Origin: Desulfosarcinaceae bacterium
GTDB lineage: Bacteria; Desulfobacterota; Desulfobacteria; Desulfobacterales; Desulfosarcinaceae
Assembly (NCBI GenBank): GCA_030066015.1
Contig: JASJCL010000017.1
Coordinates: 1 to 64,000 of the forward strand
Reading direction: 5' to 3'
Length of the DNA stretch: 64,000 nucleotides
Part shown: piece after piece, positions 6,241-15,128 of the stretch
How the letters are laid out: each line of letters begins with the position of its first letter
Numbering within the stretch: position 1 is the stretch's first letter
Notes under the pieces: generated by a model
Told to the model about the DNA's origin: nothing
Seen by the model: the letters and a program-made list of their open reading frames with translations, nothing else
The model's database searches: none
Position numbers and translations under genes: made by a program

Positions 6241-7755
6241 TCAAGCGGCCATGCAGCTGCGATTGCGTCCGCTGGCCTTGGCCTGATAGAGGGCGTCGTC
6301 GGCCCGTTTGACCAGCTCCGCCGGCTGGCAGACGGCCCCTGGAGAGACGGCGACGGCCCCCAAGCTCAAGGTCACATTGGCCGAACCCGCATCGGTCTCG
6401 ATGTGCAAAGCGGCCACCGCCTTGCGGAGACGTTCGGCGGCCAGCAAGGTTCCGTCTGCGTCGGTCTCCGGCAGAATCATGGCAAACTCTTCACCGCCGT
6501 AGCGGGCGAGATGATCGGATTCACGCAGGGCCTCTCGCAGGCTGGTGGCCACCTGCTTGAGAACCTCGTCGCCCGCCGGGTGGCCGAAGGTATCGTTGAT
6601 GGTCTTGAAATGATCGAGATCGGCGAACAGCACACCCAAGTGCTGTTTGTAACGCCGCGCGCGATAACACTCCTGATGCAGCAGTTCATTGAAATGCTGG
6701 TAGTTGCTCAGTTGGGTCATTCCATCGCGGGTCGTTTGCTGTTTGAGCGTTTCGATCTGGCGCTGCTGGGCAATCAGTTCGGCCATCATATCCATGGAGG
6801 AGGTGACCAGCGCTTGGCGTGCTTCGGCCACGATGTCGTGGTAGCGGTCGGCGGATCCGGGGTCGAGATCGAAGATGGGGAAGACCTCCTGCGCCTTTTC
6901 GCCGATCTCGCTGGCCACCGCTTCGCAGACGGAGTGGTCCCCCATGCCGCATTGGGCGGCATAGTGGGCGATGACCTTGAGTTGAAGGACCGGATCGATG
7001 GCGTCCACCCCTTGGCTGGATGCGAATAGCTCACCAAAGAGCGCCGCCAGGTGGAGCAGGTTCACCTGATTCGTCAACGCCCGCTCCTCGGCACGCAGGG
7101 TCTCCGGCCGATGATGCCGTAGCAGGGAGACGCTGAAACTCTCCGGCAACCCCCAACTGGTCGCCAAATAGGCGCCCAGGTGGGCATGGTCGAACCCCAG
7201 GACATGGCGCTCGGCGGACTGTGCGGTGCACCCGCTGGCCGTCATCTCCTGGAGGATCAAGCTGTATTGGTCGGGGACGGCCTGGGTGAGGGCCAGCATA
7301 CCGATATCGTGCATAAGCCCCAGAAAGAACGCATCCTCACTGAAATTGGGGAAGTGTCGATGGGCCAGGGCTCTGGCCGCCACGCCCGTCGCCAGGGAGC
7401 GCTTCCAGAAGCCGGCATAATCGAAAAGGGGAGTTGCCGTTGCTGGAGATTCGCCGCTGCGCAAATGTTTGACCAAACTGAAACCGAGGGCCAGGTTCTT
7501 GACAGCATGGCTGCCCATGAGGTTGACGGCGTGAAAGACGGAGGTGATTTTGTTGGGGAGCCCGAAGAAGGCAGAGTTAATCACCTTGAGCACTTCGGCA
7601 CTCAGGGAGGGATCGGTAGCAACCACCTCGGCGATGGCGTGAAGGTCGGCCTCGGGGTCGTTGACCACCTCGATGATGCGCATGGCTATCCCCGGTAGCG
7701 TGGGCAGCCGGTCATCGGAACGAACGATCTGTTCAAAGGCAAAGGTTTGCGCCAT
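6241..7755 (-). CDS. HDOD domain-diguanylate cyclase (GGDEF)
   Basis: A 504-residue cytoplasmic signalling protein. Residues about 10-210 match the HDOD (non-catalytic HD-related) domain, with LPTLPGIAMRIIE at its start and LMHDIGMLAL in the core. A linker helix follows. Residues about 345-500 are a GGDEF domain with an intact active-site GGEEF (about 420-424) and an RESD inhibitory-site motif five residues upstream, so c-di-GMP synthesis with product inhibition is expected. The start is backed by an AAAGGAGC ribosome site six nt before the ATG. No membrane segment is visible. It is probably a soluble integrator linking a protein-protein HDOD signal to c-di-GMP. Confidence 0.92.
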   Translation of the reverse strand: MAQTFAFEQIVRSDDRLPTLPGIAMRIIEVVNDPEADLHAIAEVVATDPSLSAEVLKVINSAFFGLPNKITSVFHAVNLMGSHAVKNLALGFSLVKHLRSGESPATATPLFDYAGFWKRSLATGVAARALAHRHFPNFSEDAFFLGLMHDIGMLALTQAVPDQYSLILQEMTASGCTAQSAERHVLGFDHAHLGAYLATSWGLPESFSVSLLRHHRPETLRAEERALTNQVNLLHLAALFGELFASSQGVDAIDPVLQLKVIAHYAAQCGMGDHSVCEAVASEIGEKAQEVFPIFDLDPGSADRYHDIVAEARQALVTSSMDMMAELIAQQRQIETLKQQTTRDGMTQLSNYQHFNELLHQECYRARRYKQHLGVLFADLDHFKTINDTFGHPAGDEVLKQVATSLREALRESDHLARYGGEEFAMILPETDADGTLLAAERLRKAVAALHIETDAGSANVTLSLGAVAVSPGAVCQPAELVKRADDALYQAKASGRNRSCMAA

Positions 7756-7981: not shown

Positions 7982-9232
7982 TCAATGCTTGAAGGATCGT
8001 TGACCGGTGAAGACCATGGTGGCCCCTGCCGCGTTGCAGGCCGCAATCACCTGGTAGTCGTTGAGACTCCCGCCTGGCTGAATGACGGCCGTCACCCCCT
8101 CGCGCAGTCCCACATCGACCCCGTCCCGAAAGGGAAAGAAGGCGTCGCTCACCATGGCGGCGCCGACGAGGCCGCCTTTCTCTTCCGCCACCCGGGCATC
8201 GATGGCCGCTTTGCGATCCGGGTCGTCCAGATCGTTGTAGGCCATACCGGTCTCGGCGAAGCAGTAGCGGTCGGCCAGTTTACGATAGGCCTTGTCGCGG
8301 GCGATCTCGGCCACCCCCACGCGATCCTGCTCGCCGGTGCCGATGCCCACGGTCACGCCGTTTTTGACGTATAGAACCGAGTTGGAGGTAACGCCCGCCT
8401 CCACCAGCCAGCCGAAGAGCAGGTCCGCAGTTTCGGCCTCTGTGGGCGCCCGCTGAATTTGAACGGTGTCGCCGTCATGCACACTACTAGCCATGGTGAG
8501 ATCCGCAGCGCTGCGGGTGTGCGGCACGAAGGACCACTGGGCAATGAGGCCGCCGTCAATCAGGCTCTTGAAGTCCACACAGCGCTGTCCCACGAAACGC
8601 TGCAACCGCTCGATGTTGGCGATGCGAACCACGCGCAGGTTCTTCTTGCGGGCCAAGACTTCCAGCGTGCCCGCCTCGAACTCGGGTGCCACCACCACCT
8701 CTGCGTACCGCTGAACAATGGCCTCGGCCGTTGCCAAATCCACCGCACGGTTCAGGGCGATACAGCCCCCGAATGCCGCCACGCGGTCCGCCTGGTTGGC
8801 CTTGAGGTACGCATCCTCGAGGGAATCCCCCTGGGCAACGCCACAGGGGTTGTTGTGCTTGACGATCACCACAGTAGGGTTATCGGTCAAATAGCGTAAA
8901 ATATTTAGGGCATTATCGGCATCTGTGATATTCGTTTTGCCTGGATGTTTGCCGGATTGGAGCAGTTCGATGTCAGAGGCCAGATAGTTGCCCGGCAGGA
9001 GCATTTCGGTCTGCCCCAGGATCAGGTTGCCGTTGGTCAGGCGATAGAGTGCCGCCTCCTGGCCCGGGTTCTCGCCATAACGCAGCCCTTTCACTTCGCC
9101 ATCGATCTCCCAGCCCACCTTTTCATAGATCAGGGTCTGGCGGTTCGAATCGTCGATGAAGCTGATCTCCATGCGGGGTGGAAAGTGATCGCCCAGGATG
9201 GTCCGGTACATCTGCTTGAGATCTTCTGCCAT
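7982..9232 (-). CDS. purH: AICAR transformylase (PurH C-terminal domain as a stand-alone gene)
   Basis: Catalyses 10-formyl-THF-dependent formylation of AICAR to FAICAR, the penultimate step of IMP synthesis. This 416-residue protein covers only the transformylase domain of bifunctional PurH. It starts near the RYGENPGQ motif region and contains the catalytic KHNNPCG motif, and the C-terminus ends in a typical RSFKH. Its own ATG follows a good AGGAGA ribosome site. It sits 14 nt after the stop of the IMP cyclohydrolase gene and in another frame. A real gene split is therefore more likely than a sequencing frameshift. Downstream lies the structured element at 7883-7970. Confidence 0.93.
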   Translation of the reverse strand: MAEDLKQMYRTILGDHFPPRMEISFIDDSNRQTLIYEKVGWEIDGEVKGLRYGENPGQEAALYRLTNGNLILGQTEMLLPGNYLASDIELLQSGKHPGKTNITDADNALNILRYLTDNPTVVIVKHNNPCGVAQGDSLEDAYLKANQADRVAAFGGCIALNRAVDLATAEAIVQRYAEVVVAPEFEAGTLEVLARKKNLRVVRIANIERLQRFVGQRCVDFKSLIDGGLIAQWSFVPHTRSAADLTMASSVHDGDTVQIQRAPTEAETADLLFGWLVEAGVTSNSVLYVKNGVTVGIGTGEQDRVGVAEIARDKAYRKLADRYCFAETGMAYNDLDDPDRKAAIDARVAEEKGGLVGAAMVSDAFFPFRDGVDVGLREGVTAVIQPGGSLNDYQVIAACNAAGATMVFTGQRSFKH

Positions 9233-9246
9233 GGTTTATCTCCTCA

Positions 9247-9927
9247 TCAATGGTGCTGATAGCAGGCGGCGACGGCATCGGCGCTCTGTGCCTGCAGGTA
9301 GTCAGAAATGGCCGCGTCGTAGGCGGCGGTGTGGGCAAAGGCTTTCTGGGCCAAACGGAACCGCAAAGACAGCTCGGTGCGCCCCTGGGTGGCCTTGAGA
9401 TCCGACACGATCCCATCATAATCTGCTGGATCGACGACCGAGGCCACCCGGATGAAATTCTTCGCTGCCGCCCGGATCATGCAGGGGCCGCCGATGTCGA
9501 TATTGCCACGGGCCCTCTCTGGGGTCACCCCGTCGGCGGCGACCGTGGCCTCAAAGGGGTAGAGATTGACCACCACCATGTCGATGGGGACAGCGGCGGT
9601 GCGCGCCAAGTCCTCTCGATGGTCTGCATTGTAGGTTTCGGTCAGCAGCCCCAGATAGATCTTGAAGTCCAGCGTCTTGACCAGCCCCCCCTGGGTTTCG
9701 GGCTGCCCGGTATAGTCCGCCACCGGCGTCAGACAACCGTCCGCCCGCTCGCCGAGGATCTCTTTCAATCGACCGAAAGTGCCACCGGTGGAAAAGATCG
9801 TCACCTGGGGATTGACGGCCAGGAGCCCCTCGGCCAACCGGTCAAGTCCCGTTTTGTCCGATACACTGATGAGCACATGGCGCACTGCCACCGCACCATC
9901 GATCTCCGTCACCACGTTTAGAGCCAT
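9247..9927 (-). CDS. purH: IMP cyclohydrolase (PurH N-terminal domain as a stand-alone gene)
   Basis: A 226-residue protein equivalent to the MGS-like inosinicase domain of PurH, closing FAICAR to IMP. Recognisable motifs are the ALISVSDKTG-like start (VLISVSDKTG), STGGT, the VKTLDFKIY segment in place of the usual VKTLHPKIH, VVNLYPFE and the IDIGGPCMIRAAAKN motif. The usual His-Pro of VKTLHP reads Asp-Phe here, which may affect activity and deserves a check. The gene follows the HD hydrolase after 3 nt and precedes the AICAR transformylase gene, so the two PurH activities are co-expressed as separate polypeptides. Confidence 0.92.
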   Translation of the reverse strand: MALNVVTEIDGAVAVRHVLISVSDKTGLDRLAEGLLAVNPQVTIFSTGGTFGRLKEILGERADGCLTPVADYTGQPETQGGLVKTLDFKIYLGLLTETYNADHREDLARTAAVPIDMVVVNLYPFEATVAADGVTPERARGNIDIGGPCMIRAAAKNFIRVASVVDPADYDGIVSDLKATQGRTELSLRFRLAQKAFAHTAAYDAAISDYLQAQSADAVAACYQHH

Positions 9928-9930
9928 AGG

Positions 9931-10623
9931 TCACCTCTCTCCTCTGTATTCCAGTAGAAAACGATTGAAAAACGCCACCATGAAGGCATGCCGATCGGCC
10001 GCCAAACGACGTCCCTCGGCGGTCAGCATCCGGGCCTGGATCTTGACCAGCTTGACGCAGTATTCCCGATAACCCGTATCCTCTTTGGAATAGGCCGCCG
10101 CCGCAGTCGGATCCAGGTCCGGATTGTGCAGTTTGGCCCCCAGTTCTCCGGCAAAGAGGTAGGCCCGTGCAACGCCGATGGCACCGATGGCGTCCAGCTT
10201 GTCGGCATCAAAAAGGACTTTGGCCTCCAGGCTCACCGGCACATCTGCGCCGCGGTAGCGGTGGGTTCGGATGCAATGGAGGATATTGTCCCGCCGCGAC
10301 GCTTCCAGGGGCAGGTTGGCCAACAGGGGCACCGCCATCTGGGCGCCCCGCTGGGCATGACAATGGCCGCCGCTGGATCCCTCCTCGTCGCAGCGTCCGA
10401 TATCGTGAAGGCAGGCGGCCAGCGCCACCACCGTCAGGTCGGCGCCCTCCACCCGGCCGATGCGCGCGCTGAGACGGCGCACCCGCAGGGAGTGCTCCCA
10501 GTCGTGGCTGCCTCGGGCGGCGGCGAAGAGCGCCTCCGCCTGCCGGGCGATCTGTTCAACCAGGTGGGCTTCCCTGGCGGCAACATCTTCGCTTCCCATC
10601 TGGGGTTGGCCACTATCCAGCAT
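9931..10623 (-). CDS. HD-domain phosphohydrolase (YedJ/YpgQ-like)
   Basis: A 230-residue cytoplasmic HD-superfamily hydrolase. The metal-binding pattern is visible: His in SHDWEHSLRV, the HD pair in CLHDIGR, downstream His residues near GGHCHAQRG and IRTHRYRG, and Asp in DADKLDAIGAIG. This layout matches the YedJ/YpgQ group; B. subtilis YpgQ is known as a metal-dependent dNTP pyrophosphohydrolase. Its position 3 nt before the split purH genes makes a nucleotide substrate plausible, but that is inference. The start at 10623 has a GAGG/AAGGAG-rich leader; the 16-residue upstream extension is unlikely to be translated. Confidence 0.82.
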   Translation of the reverse strand: MLDSGQPQMGSEDVAAREAHLVEQIARQAEALFAAARGSHDWEHSLRVRRLSARIGRVEGADLTVVALAACLHDIGRCDEEGSSGGHCHAQRGAQMAVPLLANLPLEASRRDNILHCIRTHRYRGADVPVSLEAKVLFDADKLDAIGAIGVARAYLFAGELGAKLHNPDLDPTAAAAYSKEDTGYREYCVKLVKIQARMLTAEGRRLAADRHAFMVAFFNRFLLEYRGER

Positions 10624-10794
10624 CGTCCTCACTTCTCCTTGGCCGCACCACAGGGCCTCGCCGACCGCCAATGAAGGCCACCTTCAGTCGTTGAAGACCA
10701 TCTTCAGTGTCGGAACGGACGGTGCTCCGGCAATGGCATCGAACGCATCTTCGGCCCTCTCTGCGGCCAAGGGTAACGGCAGTGCGCGCCCGAC

Positions 10795-11493
10795 TCAACC
10801 GAACTGCATCATGCCCTCCCACCGCTCGAAAGCGGACGTCACCGGTAGGCCTTTACGCTTCAAAAAGGCGATGATGTCCGGCGCATCGAAACGCAGGTAG
10901 GGATCGACGTTCAGTTCGTCGGCCAGGGTGGTGACCACGTGGTCGGGATCGTATTGGCCCAGATAGGCCTTCAAATGGGGGTGGTCCGGCGTCACCACAC
11001 GGGCGAAGGCCATGGCGTCGCGCACATAATCGTGACCGGCATAGATACGGGTGCTCGGGGGAAATGCCATCAGGGTGGTGAGGCTTTCAAAAAAGGTCCG
11101 CATGTCATCGCTGAAACAATTCCCCACCGTTCCGTTGAAAAGCGTATCGCCGGTGATGAGCGCCCCGTCGCATTCGAAGACCACACTGTCGCGGGTATGC
11201 CCCGGGGTATGATGGACACGAATTTCGGCTCCGTTGAGGTCGAAACGCCCTGCCTGGGCCAGAAGTCGGTGGTCGACCGCCGCGGCACCGGTGCGGGCCG
11301 TCAGCTCAGTGGAACCGCAAGTATGATCCGGGTGAGCGTGGGTATGGGTGATCTGGGTTATCTCGAGACCTTGGGCGCGGGCATGGTCACAAATGGCGTC
11401 CACGGCGCCACCGTCGATGACCACGGCTTGACCCTCATGGGAGACGAGATAGGACAGGTTGTCCATGCTGTACCGAAATTGACGAATCTCCAC
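10795..11493 (-). CDS. metallo-beta-lactamase-fold hydrolase (glyoxalase II-like)
   Basis: A 232-residue zinc-dependent hydrolase. The HxHxDH signature is present as THTHAHPDHTCG (about residues 50-61), followed by the His in HHTPGHTRDSV, the Asp in LITGDTLF and the C-terminal His in YAGHDYV. This is the glyoxalase II/persulfide-dioxygenase-like pattern acting on thioester or related substrates. The real substrate cannot be read from sequence. It follows the ParA-like gene by 6 nt and has an AGGGAG ribosome site, so it is co-transcribed with the repeat-ATPase/ParA-like pair, although a functional connection is not obvious. A 171-nt gap separates it from the HD/purH operon. Confidence 0.85.
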   Translation of the reverse strand: MEIRQFRYSMDNLSYLVSHEGQAVVIDGGAVDAICDHARAQGLEITQITHTHAHPDHTCGSTELTARTGAAAVDHRLLAQAGRFDLNGAEIRVHHTPGHTRDSVVFECDGALITGDTLFNGTVGNCFSDDMRTFFESLTTLMAFPPSTRIYAGHDYVRDAMAFARVVTPDHPHLKAYLGQYDPDHVVTTLADELNVDPYLRFDAPDIIAFLKRKGLPVTSAFERWEGMMQFG

Positions 11494-11499
11494 GGCGGC

Positions 11500-12525
11500 C
11501 TACTCCCTGGTCTGCGCCGCTCGGTGCGAGCGCCGATATTCTTCAAAGTCCAATTTGATGGGCTCACCGCCCCCCTTGCGGCGCCCCTCCGGATCCCCCT
11601 CATCGCCGAGGTCGAATTTGGCTGTCAGATCGCTGCGCAGGCGGCCCACCTCCTCGGTTAGGGAGGCCAGGCTGCTTGCGATGCGGTTCAGCTGGGTCGC
11701 CAATTCCGGTATGGGCGCCACCGCGGGGGGCGTCTGGCCATGGGACGCGTCCTCGGATTCGATGGATAGCGGCGGTTGGTGCTCCAGGCGTTGCTTGCGC
11801 GACGGGAGCGATCTGGCGGCCGGCTGCTGTAAGAGGGTCTGCAACTGCTCCCAAAAGACCATTGTCACCGGTGCCGTGGCTGCGGTGGCATCCCCGTTCA
11901 AGGCGTCGGCCAGCTCGGGCATGGCCCTGACCAGGGCGGCCGTGGGCAGGGTCATGCTGAGCAGGGCCGAGGGATCCTGCAGGGCGGCCAAATCAGGATC
12001 CCAGGGCAGGGTCGCGGATAGATGTGCGCGAAGCTTGAGCTTCTGCTCGATACTTGCGATCAGACGTTCTGCCGCCGCAATGGCGGCGGCGCTGTTGCGC
12101 ACCTGGTTCAGCACCAGCTGGATGGGCCGCGGCGGTGGTTGACGGGCGATCTCTCGGAACAGAGCGCCGACATCGCTCAAAGCCCCCTGCTCGACCTGCA
12201 GGGGAACGACCAGCTCTGCCCCCGAGAGACTCGCCGCGATGGCCAGATCGACGCTTCCCGGCGGCAGATCCAGGATGAAATAATCGTAATCATCCAATTG
12301 GGCCAGATCTGCGGCCAGAGCGGACAGGTTGCGCTGGCCGCCGGCCTCGGGTGGCGCTAGTTCGCTGAGTTCAAAGCAGTCGAAGCCCATGGTCTCAATC
12401 TGGGAGCGGCTGGTCAGGATGCAGGCGCTGGCACCCCGCTTGACCCACTCGAAGGCCAGCTCCGCAGTGATGGTGCTCTGTCCCACCTGCGGCCGGCCGC
12501 CGATGAATGCGAAGACCCGTGTCAT
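11500..12525 (-). CDS. ParA/MinD-like protein with degenerate Walker A motif
   Basis: A 341-residue protein. Residues about 1-200 follow the SIMIBI/MinD layout: N-terminal beta strand, P-loop region, a YFILDLPPG strand (switch/Walker-B region) and a VPLQVEQ strand. The P-loop reads GRPQVGQST in place of the canonical KGGVGKTT. The signature lysine is Arg and the phosphate-binding lysine is Gln, so ATP hydrolysis is doubtful. Residues about 230-330 form a proline-rich linker and a predicted coiled coil. The ATG at 12525 overlaps the TGA of the upstream ATPase gene as ATGA, implying translational coupling and a stoichiometric partnership. The ATG four codons upstream has no better support. It may be an assembly or polarity factor for the secretion/pilus-type ATPase. 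Confidence 0.8.
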   Translation of the reverse strand: MTRVFAFIGGRPQVGQSTITAELAFEWVKRGASACILTSRSQIETMGFDCFELSELAPPEAGGQRNLSALAADLAQLDDYDYFILDLPPGSVDLAIAASLSGAELVVPLQVEQGALSDVGALFREIARQPPPRPIQLVLNQVRNSAAAIAAAERLIASIEQKLKLRAHLSATLPWDPDLAALQDPSALLSMTLPTAALVRAMPELADALNGDATAATAPVTMVFWEQLQTLLQQPAARSLPSRKQRLEHQPPLSIESEDASHGQTPPAVAPIPELATQLNRIASSLASLTEEVGRLRSDLTAKFDLGDEGDPEGRRKGGGEPIKLDFEEYRRSHRAAQTRE

Positions 12526-15128
12526 GCCCCCCCCCATTGCGGCCGCGCGGCGATTTCTACCGCGTCCGCCCGTTTCTGCAGGATAAACTCGATGCGGTTG
12601 CAGCGATGGGCCCGCTGGATGGCGCCAAAATGCTCCCGGATAAACTTCCGGAACAGATCGGCATCCCCTTTGTTCAATGACTGCCCCACCTCCTCGCTGA
12701 GTCGCCGGTAGGTTTCATAGAGCTTGTCGATGAGGGGCCAATCGTCTTCGGGATCGGCGATGAGCAGCGTGGCATCCGGGGATGCAAAGTCATCGCCTGC
12801 GTCGGCAGGGCGAAGGGCGCTGCGCTGGCTGAACTCCTTGACCATTTCGATTGGGACCACCCGTAGTATTTCGCTCAGGGTGGTTTGGTCGAGTTTGCGC
12901 AGCCCATCATCGATCATGGTCCGCATGCCGGTCTCCAGGGCGATCTGTTTGAGCTGGCGTTCGCTGGCACCAGCACTCATGGCCAAGGCGATATCGCGGT
13001 TAATTTCAAAGAGCTCGGAGATCACCGTGCGACCGCTGTAGCCGGAAAAGCCGCAGGCCTTGCAGCCAATCCCCCGATGGAACCGGAGATGATCGGGGTA
13101 GTTGCGAAAGAAGAGCCGCCACTCGGCGCGGGCAGGGCGGTATTCGCGGGCACATTTTAGACAATTGCGGCGCACCAGGCGCTGCGCCAGAACGCCGATG
13201 AGGCTGGCGGCGATCTGATTGGGTTCGATCGCCAGGTCGAGCAACCGGCTGACGGCGCTGACGGCATCGTTGGTATGGATGGTGGAGAGAAGCAGATGGC
13301 CGGTTTGGGCGGCATCAAACCCGATGGCGGCGGTCTCGGGATCACGGATCTCACCCACCAGTATCACGTCGGGATCCAGGCGCAAGAAGGAGCGCAGCAA
13401 ACGGGCGAAGGTCAATCCGATCTTCGGCTTGACCTGCGTTTGCATGATCCCCGGAAAGCTGTACTCGATGGGATCCTCGGCGGTGATGATCTTGATTCCC
13501 GGATGGTAGATATACTGCAGGGCGCCGTAAAGGGTGGAAGACTTGCCGCTCCCGGTGGGGCCTGAGACCAGCACCATGCCGGCCGAACTCTTGAACAGCC
13601 GCTTGAGGGGACTCAAAACCTCCTCGGAGTGGTTGAGGTTCTCGAGACCCACCTTGGCCTTGCGCGAATCGAGAATCCGAATCGTGACGTTCTCACCGGA
13701 AATGGCCGGGCAGGTGGCGACCCGGAAGTCCAGGTCGAAGCGCTTTTTCGATCCCCGATCCAGATAGTTGATGCGAAAGACACCATCCTGCGGCAGCCGC
13801 CGTTCGGCGATGTCCAGGTTGGACATCACCTTGATCCGCGAGATGATGGCGCCGGGCATCGCCTGAAGCTTCTCGTCCAGCCAGGCGGGGTTGTGCTCTT
13901 CACAGACGCCGTCCAGACGGTACCGTAGGGTAGTCTTCTCGCGATCCTGCTCCAAATGGATATCGCTGGCCCCATTGATGATGCCGTATTTGATGATGTG
14001 ATCCACCACCTGCTCCGCCATCAGGTCGGTGCCGCCATACAGGTTGGCCCCCGCCTCGCCCTTGGTTTGGTCCAGGTCGATCTCCACCAGATCGCCCCCA
14101 TCGACGCTCATCGGCATCTCCACGCCGTCTGCCCCAGGAAGCGTTCGACCGTAAAGGAGCGTGAACAGCTCGGCGAACTTGCCGTCGTTGATGAAGACGG
14201 TGGAGATGTTGCGTTCGCCGTACATCGGCTTGATGTCCTGAAGGGCCGCCAGGCTCTTGGGGTGGGTAATGCCGATGGTCAGGGTCTCGCGATCCAGCGA
14301 GAGGGGCAAAAGGCGGTTGCGCAGCGAGAACTTCTCCCCCACCACGCGGGTCAGGGCGCTCTTCTCGGTTCCGGCGTAAGAGAAGTCCGCCAGGTCGCGG
14401 TAGGGAATGTTGTATTGACGGCTGAGGGCCTCGAAGAGCTGGTCGATGGTCACCAGTTCCTTGCCCAGAAGGACCTGGCCCAGGGCGGTATTGGTCTGGC
14501 CCTGCTCCTGGATGGCCGCCTGGAAATCACGTTCGCTGATCACCTGCTGCTTGATGAGAATCTCACCCAGCTTAAGCTGCTTGTCATATTTGCGCAGGAT
14601 GAAGTTGAGGTCTTCGGCGCGAACCAGTTCAAGATCCACCAGTACTTCACCCAGCGTCCGGTGCATGCTCTTGGCGGCCAGGAGTTGATCCAGTTTACGG
14701 CGGGTGATCATGTTGAGGCGGAAAGCCAGCTCACCGATTTTAATGCCCTCGGCCTGTTGACGCAGAAACTCCTCCAGAACCTCCTTGGTGATCAACTTCT
14801 TCCTCACCAGGACGCGTCCAATGGGAATCCCCGGGGTTTTCTCCTTCAGTGCAGCGATCAACTCCTTGGGCTTGAGAAGCCCCTCGTCCACCAGCAGGGT
14901 GCCGATGTGACGCCGCAGATCGGGGTGATTGAGGAGGGTCTGCAACTGCTCCTGCGAGATCAAACCCCGCTGAACCATCATCTCACCCAGGGGCAAAGCG
15001 GCCGCTTCAGCTTCCTTCCGCTGCACCGCGAGGGACCGCCTCAGGTCCTGCTGCTGGAGGAAGCCTTCCCGCACCAACAGCTCGCCAATACGGGGGGCGG
15101 TTTTCTTTTGAATCCTTTTCGTGGTCAT
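12522..15128 (-). CDS. GspE/PilB-type secretion or pilus ATPase with eight N-terminal repeats
   Basis: An 868-residue cytoplasmic ATPase of the T2SS/type IV pilus family. Residues 14 to about 245 are eight tandem repeats of the IGELLV..G.I....L..AL type, mostly exactly 28 residues apart; the last merges with the usual MshEN/GspE-N domain. The catalytic core has Walker A GPTGSGKSS (Lys529), a Walker B/Asp box around DPDVILVGEIRDPETA, a His box with STIHTND, and a tetracysteine zinc site (CLKC...CKAC). A tail of about 95 residues extends past the usual end. ATG at 15128 has a GGAG six nt upstream; the 166-residue open extension upstream is low-complexity antisense-like sequence and is rejected. 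No pilin or inner-membrane partner is nearby, only the coupled ParA-like gene. Confidence 0.9.
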   Translation of the reverse strand: MTTKRIQKKTAPRIGELLVREGFLQQQDLRRSLAVQRKEAEAAALPLGEMMVQRGLISQEQLQTLLNHPDLRRHIGTLLVDEGLLKPKELIAALKEKTPGIPIGRVLVRKKLITKEVLEEFLRQQAEGIKIGELAFRLNMITRRKLDQLLAAKSMHRTLGEVLVDLELVRAEDLNFILRKYDKQLKLGEILIKQQVISERDFQAAIQEQGQTNTALGQVLLGKELVTIDQLFEALSRQYNIPYRDLADFSYAGTEKSALTRVVGEKFSLRNRLLPLSLDRETLTIGITHPKSLAALQDIKPMYGERNISTVFINDGKFAELFTLLYGRTLPGADGVEMPMSVDGGDLVEIDLDQTKGEAGANLYGGTDLMAEQVVDHIIKYGIINGASDIHLEQDREKTTLRYRLDGVCEEHNPAWLDEKLQAMPGAIISRIKVMSNLDIAERRLPQDGVFRINYLDRGSKKRFDLDFRVATCPAISGENVTIRILDSRKAKVGLENLNHSEEVLSPLKRLFKSSAGMVLVSGPTGSGKSSTLYGALQYIYHPGIKIITAEDPIEYSFPGIMQTQVKPKIGLTFARLLRSFLRLDPDVILVGEIRDPETAAIGFDAAQTGHLLLSTIHTNDAVSAVSRLLDLAIEPNQIAASLIGVLAQRLVRRNCLKCAREYRPARAEWRLFFRNYPDHLRFHRGIGCKACGFSGYSGRTVISELFEINRDIALAMSAGASERQLKQIALETGMRTMIDDGLRKLDQTTLSEILRVVPIEMVKEFSQRSALRPADAGDDFASPDATLLIADPEDDWPLIDKLYETYRRLSEEVGQSLNKGDADLFRKFIREHFGAIQRAHRCNRIEFILQKRADAVEIAARPQWGGA

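Follow-up and report, generated by a model that had tools for sequence, protein, structure and literature searches.

A PilB/MshE-type motor ATPase and its MinD-like partner with a degenerate Walker A in a Desulfosarcinaceae bacterium

MinD/ParA proteins are regarded as positioning structures in the cell through rounds of ATP use. Within this superfamily, FlhG/FleN (MinD2) proteins carry an N-terminal activation helix (DQAxxLR) and are linked to flhF, and TadZ carries an extra N-terminal domain. Here we describe a member of the fold that is encoded directly behind a PilB/MshE-type motor ATPase in a 64,000-nucleotide stretch of DNA from a Desulfosarcinaceae bacterium (GenBank assembly GCA_030066015.1, contig JASJCL010000017.1, positions 1 to 64,000 of the forward strand), which we call the window. 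The nearest described parallel is TadZ/CpaE: TadZ belongs to the FleN type, has an atypical Walker A and works for a type IV filament machine, and it is reported to be at the pole early and to recruit other Tad parts (PMC6668835). Another lies in the archaellum, where a motor of the same superfamily as ours, FlaI, is described as being stimulated by FlaH, a partner that binds ATP and does not hydrolyse it (PMC6011876).

The pair in the window differs from each of these systems. We tentatively favour reading it as a motor with a TadZ-like adaptor that would act mainly through its C-terminal tail and whose nucleotide switch has probably been lost in the window. A previous interpretation, the sequence-only reading, had called the pair an uncharacterised machine marked by a catalytically dead MinD-like protein. 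Of this, the uncharacterised machine is a fair description if taken as a motor accessory, while the dead P-loop fails as a hallmark once relatives are compared. We found no description of such a motor/MinD-like pair in the open-licence literature, which is weak evidence of absence, and no word beginning 'MinD' occurs in the main text of a review from 2024 that covers PilB and its cofactors (PMC11656802).

The gene pair in the window

Both genes lie on the minus strand, the motor open reading frame (ORF; 12522-15128) preceding that of the MinD-like protein (11500-12525). Both frames were re-read, and the coordinates and ATGA overlap given by the sequence-only reading are correct: the motor stop codon occupies 12522-12524 and the ATG of the MinD-like gene 12525-12523. 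An alternative in-frame ATG lies 12 nt upstream, at 12537, so that the partner has 341 or 345 residues and begins MTRVFAF or MGGGMTRVFAF, directly at the first strand. Its frame has coding-like codon use along the full length. An AlphaFold2 model built from a 27-row alignment (pLDDT 74.9, pTM 0.63) places the protein in the MinD/ParA fold, the best PDB match in Foldseek being FlhG 4rz2_A (E 1.1e-11, TM 0.69 by target length), with 5jvf also among the best matches.

The Walker A of the MinD-like protein (12472..12501, minus) reads GGRPQVGQST, and the lysine to glutamine change at residue 16 proposed earlier is confirmed by the codon, CAG; most relatives read SGKGGVGKT. The signature lysine is replaced by arginine, and a 25-column stretch containing switch I (DADLGLAN) is absent. 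Since these elements are lost as well, a single miscalled base would not explain the dead P-loop. The Walker B/switch II region around DYFILDLPPG (12256..12297, minus) is retained and recognisable by alignment. A MinD/ParA ATPase has a deviant Walker A with both the signature and the P-loop lysine, and the window protein has neither; as had been claimed, this MinD-like member has lost what ATPase activity requires. We therefore predict that it is catalytically dead, and ATP binding has probably been lost too. Downstream of the fold, the model supports the coiled-coil tail proposed earlier in the form of one 32-residue coiled-coil-like helix (residues 273-304; 11614..11709, minus), and motif comparison identified a pair-specific C-terminal motif, LDFEEY (11536..11553, minus).

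The motor is an 868-residue PilB/GspE-type (T2SSE) ATPase (12522..15128, minus; Pfam T2SSE, 362 bits). Its core (12867..14018, minus) has intact catalytic motifs, including the Walker A GPTGSGKS (13539..13562, minus), Walker B, His box and Cys pairs, which together with the profile match place it in the T2SSE superfamily. Eight tandem MshEN-like half-repeats, 28-33 residues apart, occupy the N-terminal part (14400..15092, minus). The repeats described by the sequence-only reading are real: the NCBIfam model NF053729 (MshE-related c-di-GMP motif) matches five stretches of the motor with 129.8 bits against a cut-off of 38. At the other end lies a C-terminal domain of ~85 residues (12525..12770, minus), which we call Cdom and for which a beta-alpha-alpha-beta-beta structure is predicted (pLDDT 85). 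A Pfam search with Cdom returned no significant match (best E 0.015), and in a PDB fold search with its model no hit reached an E-value of 0.001 (best 0.11). It is a distant relative of NCBIfam MXAN_5187_C_dom (NF041621), which 22 of 27 scanned Cdoms match at E up to 1 (best 4.3e-8) and against which the window Cdom scores 15.7 bits (cut-off 30). In contrast to the MXAN_5187 C-terminal domain proteins, Cdom is fused to a motor or repeat array; none of the open-licence papers searched mentions MXAN_5187.

The motor resembles MshE and PilB in joining a T2SSE motor to N-terminal MshEN-type motifs, but differs from them in its long tandem array, in which the c-di-GMP residues are mostly non-canonical, and in possessing Cdom. 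It also falls below the equivalog cut-offs for PilB (TIGR02538; 454.5 vs 675.65 bits) and GspE (TIGR02533; 438.7 vs 630.25 bits), a test that is not decisive in this lineage because two other unlinked motors of the same genome fall below the cut-offs as well. We rejected the window motor as clearly the main PilB, since the PilB and TfpB models give a higher score to an unlinked ATPase on contig C9; none of the three motors scored in this genome passes those models.

Unlike PilB and GspE, the motor is encoded with no platform, pilin or secretin gene: the T2SSF (platform), N_methyl (prepilin) and Secretin profiles gave zero matches across the pair's entire 155-kb contig, C43, which extends the earlier remark that no pilin or secretin genes lie nearby. 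Platform, prepilin and secretin-type genes are present elsewhere in the genome. We rejected the pair as part of the Tad-like locus on C120, and likewise as part of the loci with motor and platform genes on C142, C88 or C54. The genome has two further T2SSE motors whose contigs show no platform match (L178 6069-8378 and L177 1362-3200); the one on C119 seems, by eye, to have an N-terminal GAF domain.

The differences from TadZ/CpaE are several. The window motor is PilB/MshE-like with MshEN repeats, not TadA-like; the linkage of TadZ/CpaE to a TadA-type motor and TadB/TadC is missing; and the MinD-like protein has no extra N-terminal domain but a C-terminal coil and LDFExF-type tail. TadZ is, moreover, reported to keep ATP binding. 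FlaH likewise still binds ATP, and it is RecA-type, not MinD-type. FlhG/FleN provide the best fold matches, and intact members of the present family read SGKGGVGKT...DADLGLAN...DTSAG. The window protein nevertheless differs from them in its missing P-loop lysine, signature lysine and switch I, in its added C-terminal coil and motif, and in its neighbours, which are MBL (metallo-beta-lactamase), HD, purH and mraZ genes, not flagellar genes; the activation helix and flhF linkage are both absent. By these tests the pair is not TadZ, FlhG or PilB. In its way of working, TadZ with its motor would be the best analogy.

Walker A motifs among relatives and MinD degeneration at one genomic site

Relatives were collected in several searches. 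The MinD-like protein was searched in 60 relatives and Cdom in 291 genomes of the order, 36 of which match at E 0.01; together these searches yielded orthologous and paralogous pairs. A scan of genome contigs with the window MinD protein as query gave no matches, and the motor region was used instead. It returned 80 loci with a sharp break in identity, 41 lying at 57-78% (L086-L126) and 39 at 44% or less. The titles of the 41-locus set are Desulfobacteraceae, Desulfobacterales, Desulfobacterium, Desulfobacula, Desulfosudis, Desulfobacteria, Thermodesulfobacteriota, Deltaproteobacteria and Proteobacteria metagenome-assembled genomes, and several loci are the same contigs as loci from other searches (L059/L098; L066/L100). 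The motor-core query holds neither Cdom nor MinD, but paired motors supplied its rows, and the share of pairs among the 41 loci is therefore not a census. In a phylum-wide search 25 of 395 genomes had a Cdom-like match at E 1e-4. We examined 18 of the resulting 27 places, some identical with members of the 41-locus set, and found three further pairs (L188-L190), all intact. At nine others (L182-L187, L192-L194) the Cdom-like sequence forms the C-terminus of a 189-273-residue open frame with no motor or MinD match in the examined stretch around it; these short proteins share a similar QYF-containing N-terminal part. The linkage of MinD-like and motor genes, for which a conservation search had been suggested, is thus conserved among relatives in the phylum.

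The sequence-only reading took the dead P-loop as the defining trait of the pair and proposed checking whether all partners lack the lysine. They do not. After merging near-identical copies, 56 distinct MinD-like sequences remained (for one, L040, the motor lies off its contig), and 55 of them keep the P-loop lysine, the window being the sole exception; loss of this lysine as a general feature of the family is rejected. Where the partner is a full motor outside the mraZ/purH site, 24 of 25 MinDs read SGKGGxGK(T/S), the exception being L067 (SGKPEVDKT). The same motif was read in all 19 MinDs beside motor-less repeat proteins (16/16 elsewhere and 3/3 at the mraZ/purH site) and in 5/5 unpaired MinD-like proteins. 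Two unpaired FlhG-like proteins of ~640 residues with an intact P-loop (L043 5520-7448 and L044 5691-7691) have a C-terminal extension that resembles, by eye, a cyclic-nucleotide-binding domain. The motor-less proteins, each encoded beside an intact MinD, consist of a repeat array and Cdom and give no T2SSE core match (L050 5845-7979, L051 6401-8953, L060 2802-4804, L076 4922-7356 and 15 others).

MinD degeneration is concentrated at one genomic site, that of mraZ/purH, to which the window locus belongs. Full-motor pairs there have the Walker A sequences GGRPQVGQS (window), SPRQDIGKT, SPKQGTGKT, SGNRKVGKT, SWKKNAGKT and SASKGVGKT, and a seventh altered form, SPKEGAGKT, occurs in L040 on a contig without a visible motor. 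All seven proteins share loss of the KGG context and an altered switch I, and some retain a lysine at the signature position. An intact MinD partner was found at none of the eight motor-bearing loci that could be judged at this site (window, L086, L088, L093, L115, L077, L098 and L054; L087 ends too early): six are altered, one is tail-only and at one none was found. In the tail-only case, UBA2245 (L059/L098), the MinD is reduced to a 91-residue peptide ending IALDIDSFLKRH. A 98-residue tail-only frame ending VLDFDAFFKDKVR occurs outside the order (L197), and both tail-only peptides follow motors with intact Walker motifs and Cdom. At L054 there is no MinD gene in the 749 bp visible downstream of a motor with Cdom. 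The motor Walker A is itself broken at two of the eight loci (L054 3936-6365, GPAENGKIS; L077 3958-6276, APAGNGLCE). We note that the MinD tree offers only two supported independent pairs for altered Walker A versus the mraZ/purH site.

If the pair at the mraZ site were a decaying relic, losing function stepwise under relaxed constraint with the window MinD-like gene on its way out, then this pattern of altered, reduced and missing MinDs in 8/8 loci, together with the two broken motor P-loops, would be expected. The branch lengths point the same way. MinD branches at the mraZ site are very long, that of the window amounting to 10 changes per column (L117 was left out of this tree), and over the kept columns it shares 24% identity with the nearest other MinD. 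The window motor branch is 0.52 and the nearest motor 59% identical. The comparison of the two branches is rough, since the trees were built on different columns and that of MinD has poor resolution. A motor tree of 51 rows, built by a quick method, groups the window with L086, L087, L088, L093 and L108 in a set of six with a support of 100; in one member of this clade, L108 (Desulfobacula), Cdom has been lost together with the MinD gene.

Against decay stand the intact, coding-like MinD frame of the window, its intact and conserved motor, and tails that outlast the MinD domain. Within one related genus, three genomes with an altered Walker A (G007, G003 and G010) moreover gave dN/dS values well below 1: 0.14-0.21 for the MinD fold, 0.175-0.289 for the whole MinD gene and 0.136 for the motor (one comparison), with dS above 1.4 in two of the three comparisons. 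These low ratios suggest that the altered MinD genes are maintained. We consider the relic explanation unlikely, though the most serious of the alternatives.

The missing ATP step could also be supplied in trans, by an intact FlhG/MinD paralogue of the same genome that heterodimerises with the dead protein. The genome does hold 17 MinD-profile matches, the window's included, and the best other match is an FlhG-like gene in what by eye is an apparent flagellar operon. That paralogue is unlinked, however, and the tail-only peptides have no MinD fold with which to dimerise; we regard a switch in trans as improbable.

The C-terminal tail and the C-terminal domain of the motor

In 37 of the 41 loci both Cdom and the MinD gene could be judged (the contigs of L087, L091, L094 and L104 end too early), and the two are present or absent together without exception: 28 loci have both, 9 have neither and none is mixed. 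In this count L100, on the same contig as L066, was taken as Cdom-present even though the domain is split by an in-frame TAG, and L098 as MinD-present by its tail alone. Adding the window, L077 and L054 gives 30 loci with both, 9 with neither and 1 with Cdom alone (40 rows). On the motor tree Cdom and the MinD gene change jointly in 5/5 independent pairs in most random pairings (mean 4.9), with a median p of 0.0625 in a sign test. For this trait tree the fragments L065 and L067 and the out-of-subfamily L083 were dropped, L087 was uncounted and L100 was set as domain-present.

The tail is widely retained in the family. An LDFExF-type terminal motif ends 46 of 51 paired MinDs and 0 of 5 unpaired FlhG-like proteins; two of the five misses are cut by contig ends and three are near matches (L121, L070 and L041). 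The coil with an LDFEAF-form motif is seen in altered MinDs, in intact ones, in those with a motor-less partner and in both tail-only peptides. That the tail is kept where the ATP-using half of the MinD has decayed or disappeared suggests that it does the essential work.

One idea of what the tail might bind comes from its likeness to the C-terminal peptide of FtsZ. All 29 FtsZ sequences read (from 30 loci, window included) end PTFLRRKAD, and 25 of them have LDVPTFLRRK, while the tails read, for example, LDLEAFLRRK or LDFEAFLKRK. Scored against FtsZ, 34 of the 51 tails lie above the 99th and 40 above the 95th percentile of 1042 C-termini (L113 and L117 were left out), and the top background entry is itself a paired-MinD tail (L190). 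Such mimicry could recruit the motor to the division site or to what will become a pole, and type IVa pilus parts (the pilus alignment complex) have been described as recruited to future division sites in Pseudomonas (PMC5285504). However, the comparison was chosen after the motif had been seen, and the 51 tails are related and come close to one observation. The FtsZ proline is glutamate or aspartate in nearly all of them, and most pairs do not lie beside the fts cluster. The window tail, LDFEEYRRSH, scores 10.6, short of the 12.6 that marks the 95th percentile and less than two of the five unpaired controls reach (12.4 and 12.2). Docking on the divisome by this route is accordingly doubtful. 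We give an equally small chance to the fuller version, in which the MinD switch has been stripped to a docking tail whose FtsZ-like sequence ties the motor to the divisome and replaces the ATP cycle. On that view an ancestral ATP-driven adaptor would have turned into a dead scaffold in the window lineage and into separate peptides of 91-98 residues in two others, with motor and Cdom left intact.

We return to the TadZ-like adaptor, which we put forward as somewhat short of an even chance. The motor is a PilB/MshE-type ATPase with an MshEN-like repeat array and Cdom, and its partner would descend from an FlhG/MinD-type switch. By analogy with TadZ/CpaE in the Tad system or FlaH in the archaellum, the partner may place or regulate the motor, its coiled coil and LDFExF-type motif docking either on the motor Cdom or on some polar or septal landmark. 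Because the tail is the most consistently kept part, we take its docking as the likeliest mechanism. In most pairs the MinD domain, intact by sequence, would contribute an on/off step driven by ATP. For the copy next to the mraZ/fts cluster this switch may be dispensable, and the window protein might be a permanently 'set' scaffold. We infer that the docking is physical, that it places or regulates the motor and that a pilus apparatus is served.

Several observations weigh against this interpretation. The very long MinD branch of the window is also expected under relaxed constraint, and five independent pairs cannot reach p 0.05. The tail of the window is a diverged form of the LDFExF motif. 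L108, in the window's own motor clade, manages without Cdom and the MinD gene, which indicates that the adaptor is dispensable there, and L054 keeps Cdom with no MinD gene in the stretch visible. Finally, since 19 distinct MinDs adjoin motor-less proteins, driving a motor is not the only role of the family.

Genomic setting, c-di-GMP and the deletion series

MshEN domains bind c-di-GMP, as reported for the family (PMC5013675), and the motor could be an ordinary c-di-GMP-gated extension ATPase whose array senses the nucleotide and to which the MinD-like protein is incidental. The NF053729 match above cut-off is consistent with this, as is a same-strand gene in the window for an HDOD-GGDEF protein (GGEEF motif; 6241..7755, minus; assigned by eye), downstream of purH. 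An MshEN receptor has two RLGxx...Q motifs with a 5-residue spacer. We used a strict pattern that follows the motif published in PMC5013675 but is a little broader; among the eight half-repeats in the window it fits the first and no other, and no relaxed motif pair at 29-residue spacing was found among the eight. A 29-spaced pair of this kind occurs in two of the 47 motors scanned, some of which are truncated N-terminally: L086 and, outside the subfamily, L083. We therefore rejected secure c-di-GMP binding by the window array. Pairing with MinD is also too regular to be incidental, and an ordinary c-di-GMP-gated motor appears a poor explanation.

HDOD-type genes are frequent neighbours of motor-bearing pairs outside the mraZ site. 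Of 25 such loci, two of them on contigs that stop at the MinD gene, at least 17 have one behind MinD on the same strand. The corresponding figures are at least 3 of 16 for motor-less loci (within 1 kb) and 0 of 10 for loci at the mraZ/purH site; all are lower bounds, since one HDOD hit was kept per locus. These neighbours hint at a signalling setting, but its c-di-GMP side is weak.

Downstream of the pair, all on the minus strand and all assigned by eye, lie a metallo-beta-lactamase-fold hydrolase (10795..11493) and an HD-domain protein (9931..10671), both frequent neighbours at the mraZ/purH site. The purH functions are split over two adjoining ORFs (7982-9232 and 9247-9927), as they are in relatives at this site. 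At the motor/MinD junction there is a G9 run (12527..12535, minus), the sole G9 in the window, where dinucleotide shuffles give an expectation of 3.9. The motor and MinD frames are one base apart at this run, so that slippage could in principle fuse the two proteins.

The match between Cdom and the MinD partner in 37 of 37 judgeable loci exposes a C-terminal motor domain that has no significant Pfam match. Beside related motors, in the same operon slot and with the same tail, the family offers intact, dead and absent MinD domains. It thus amounts to a natural deletion series for asking about the contribution of the MinD fold and the action of the tail by itself.

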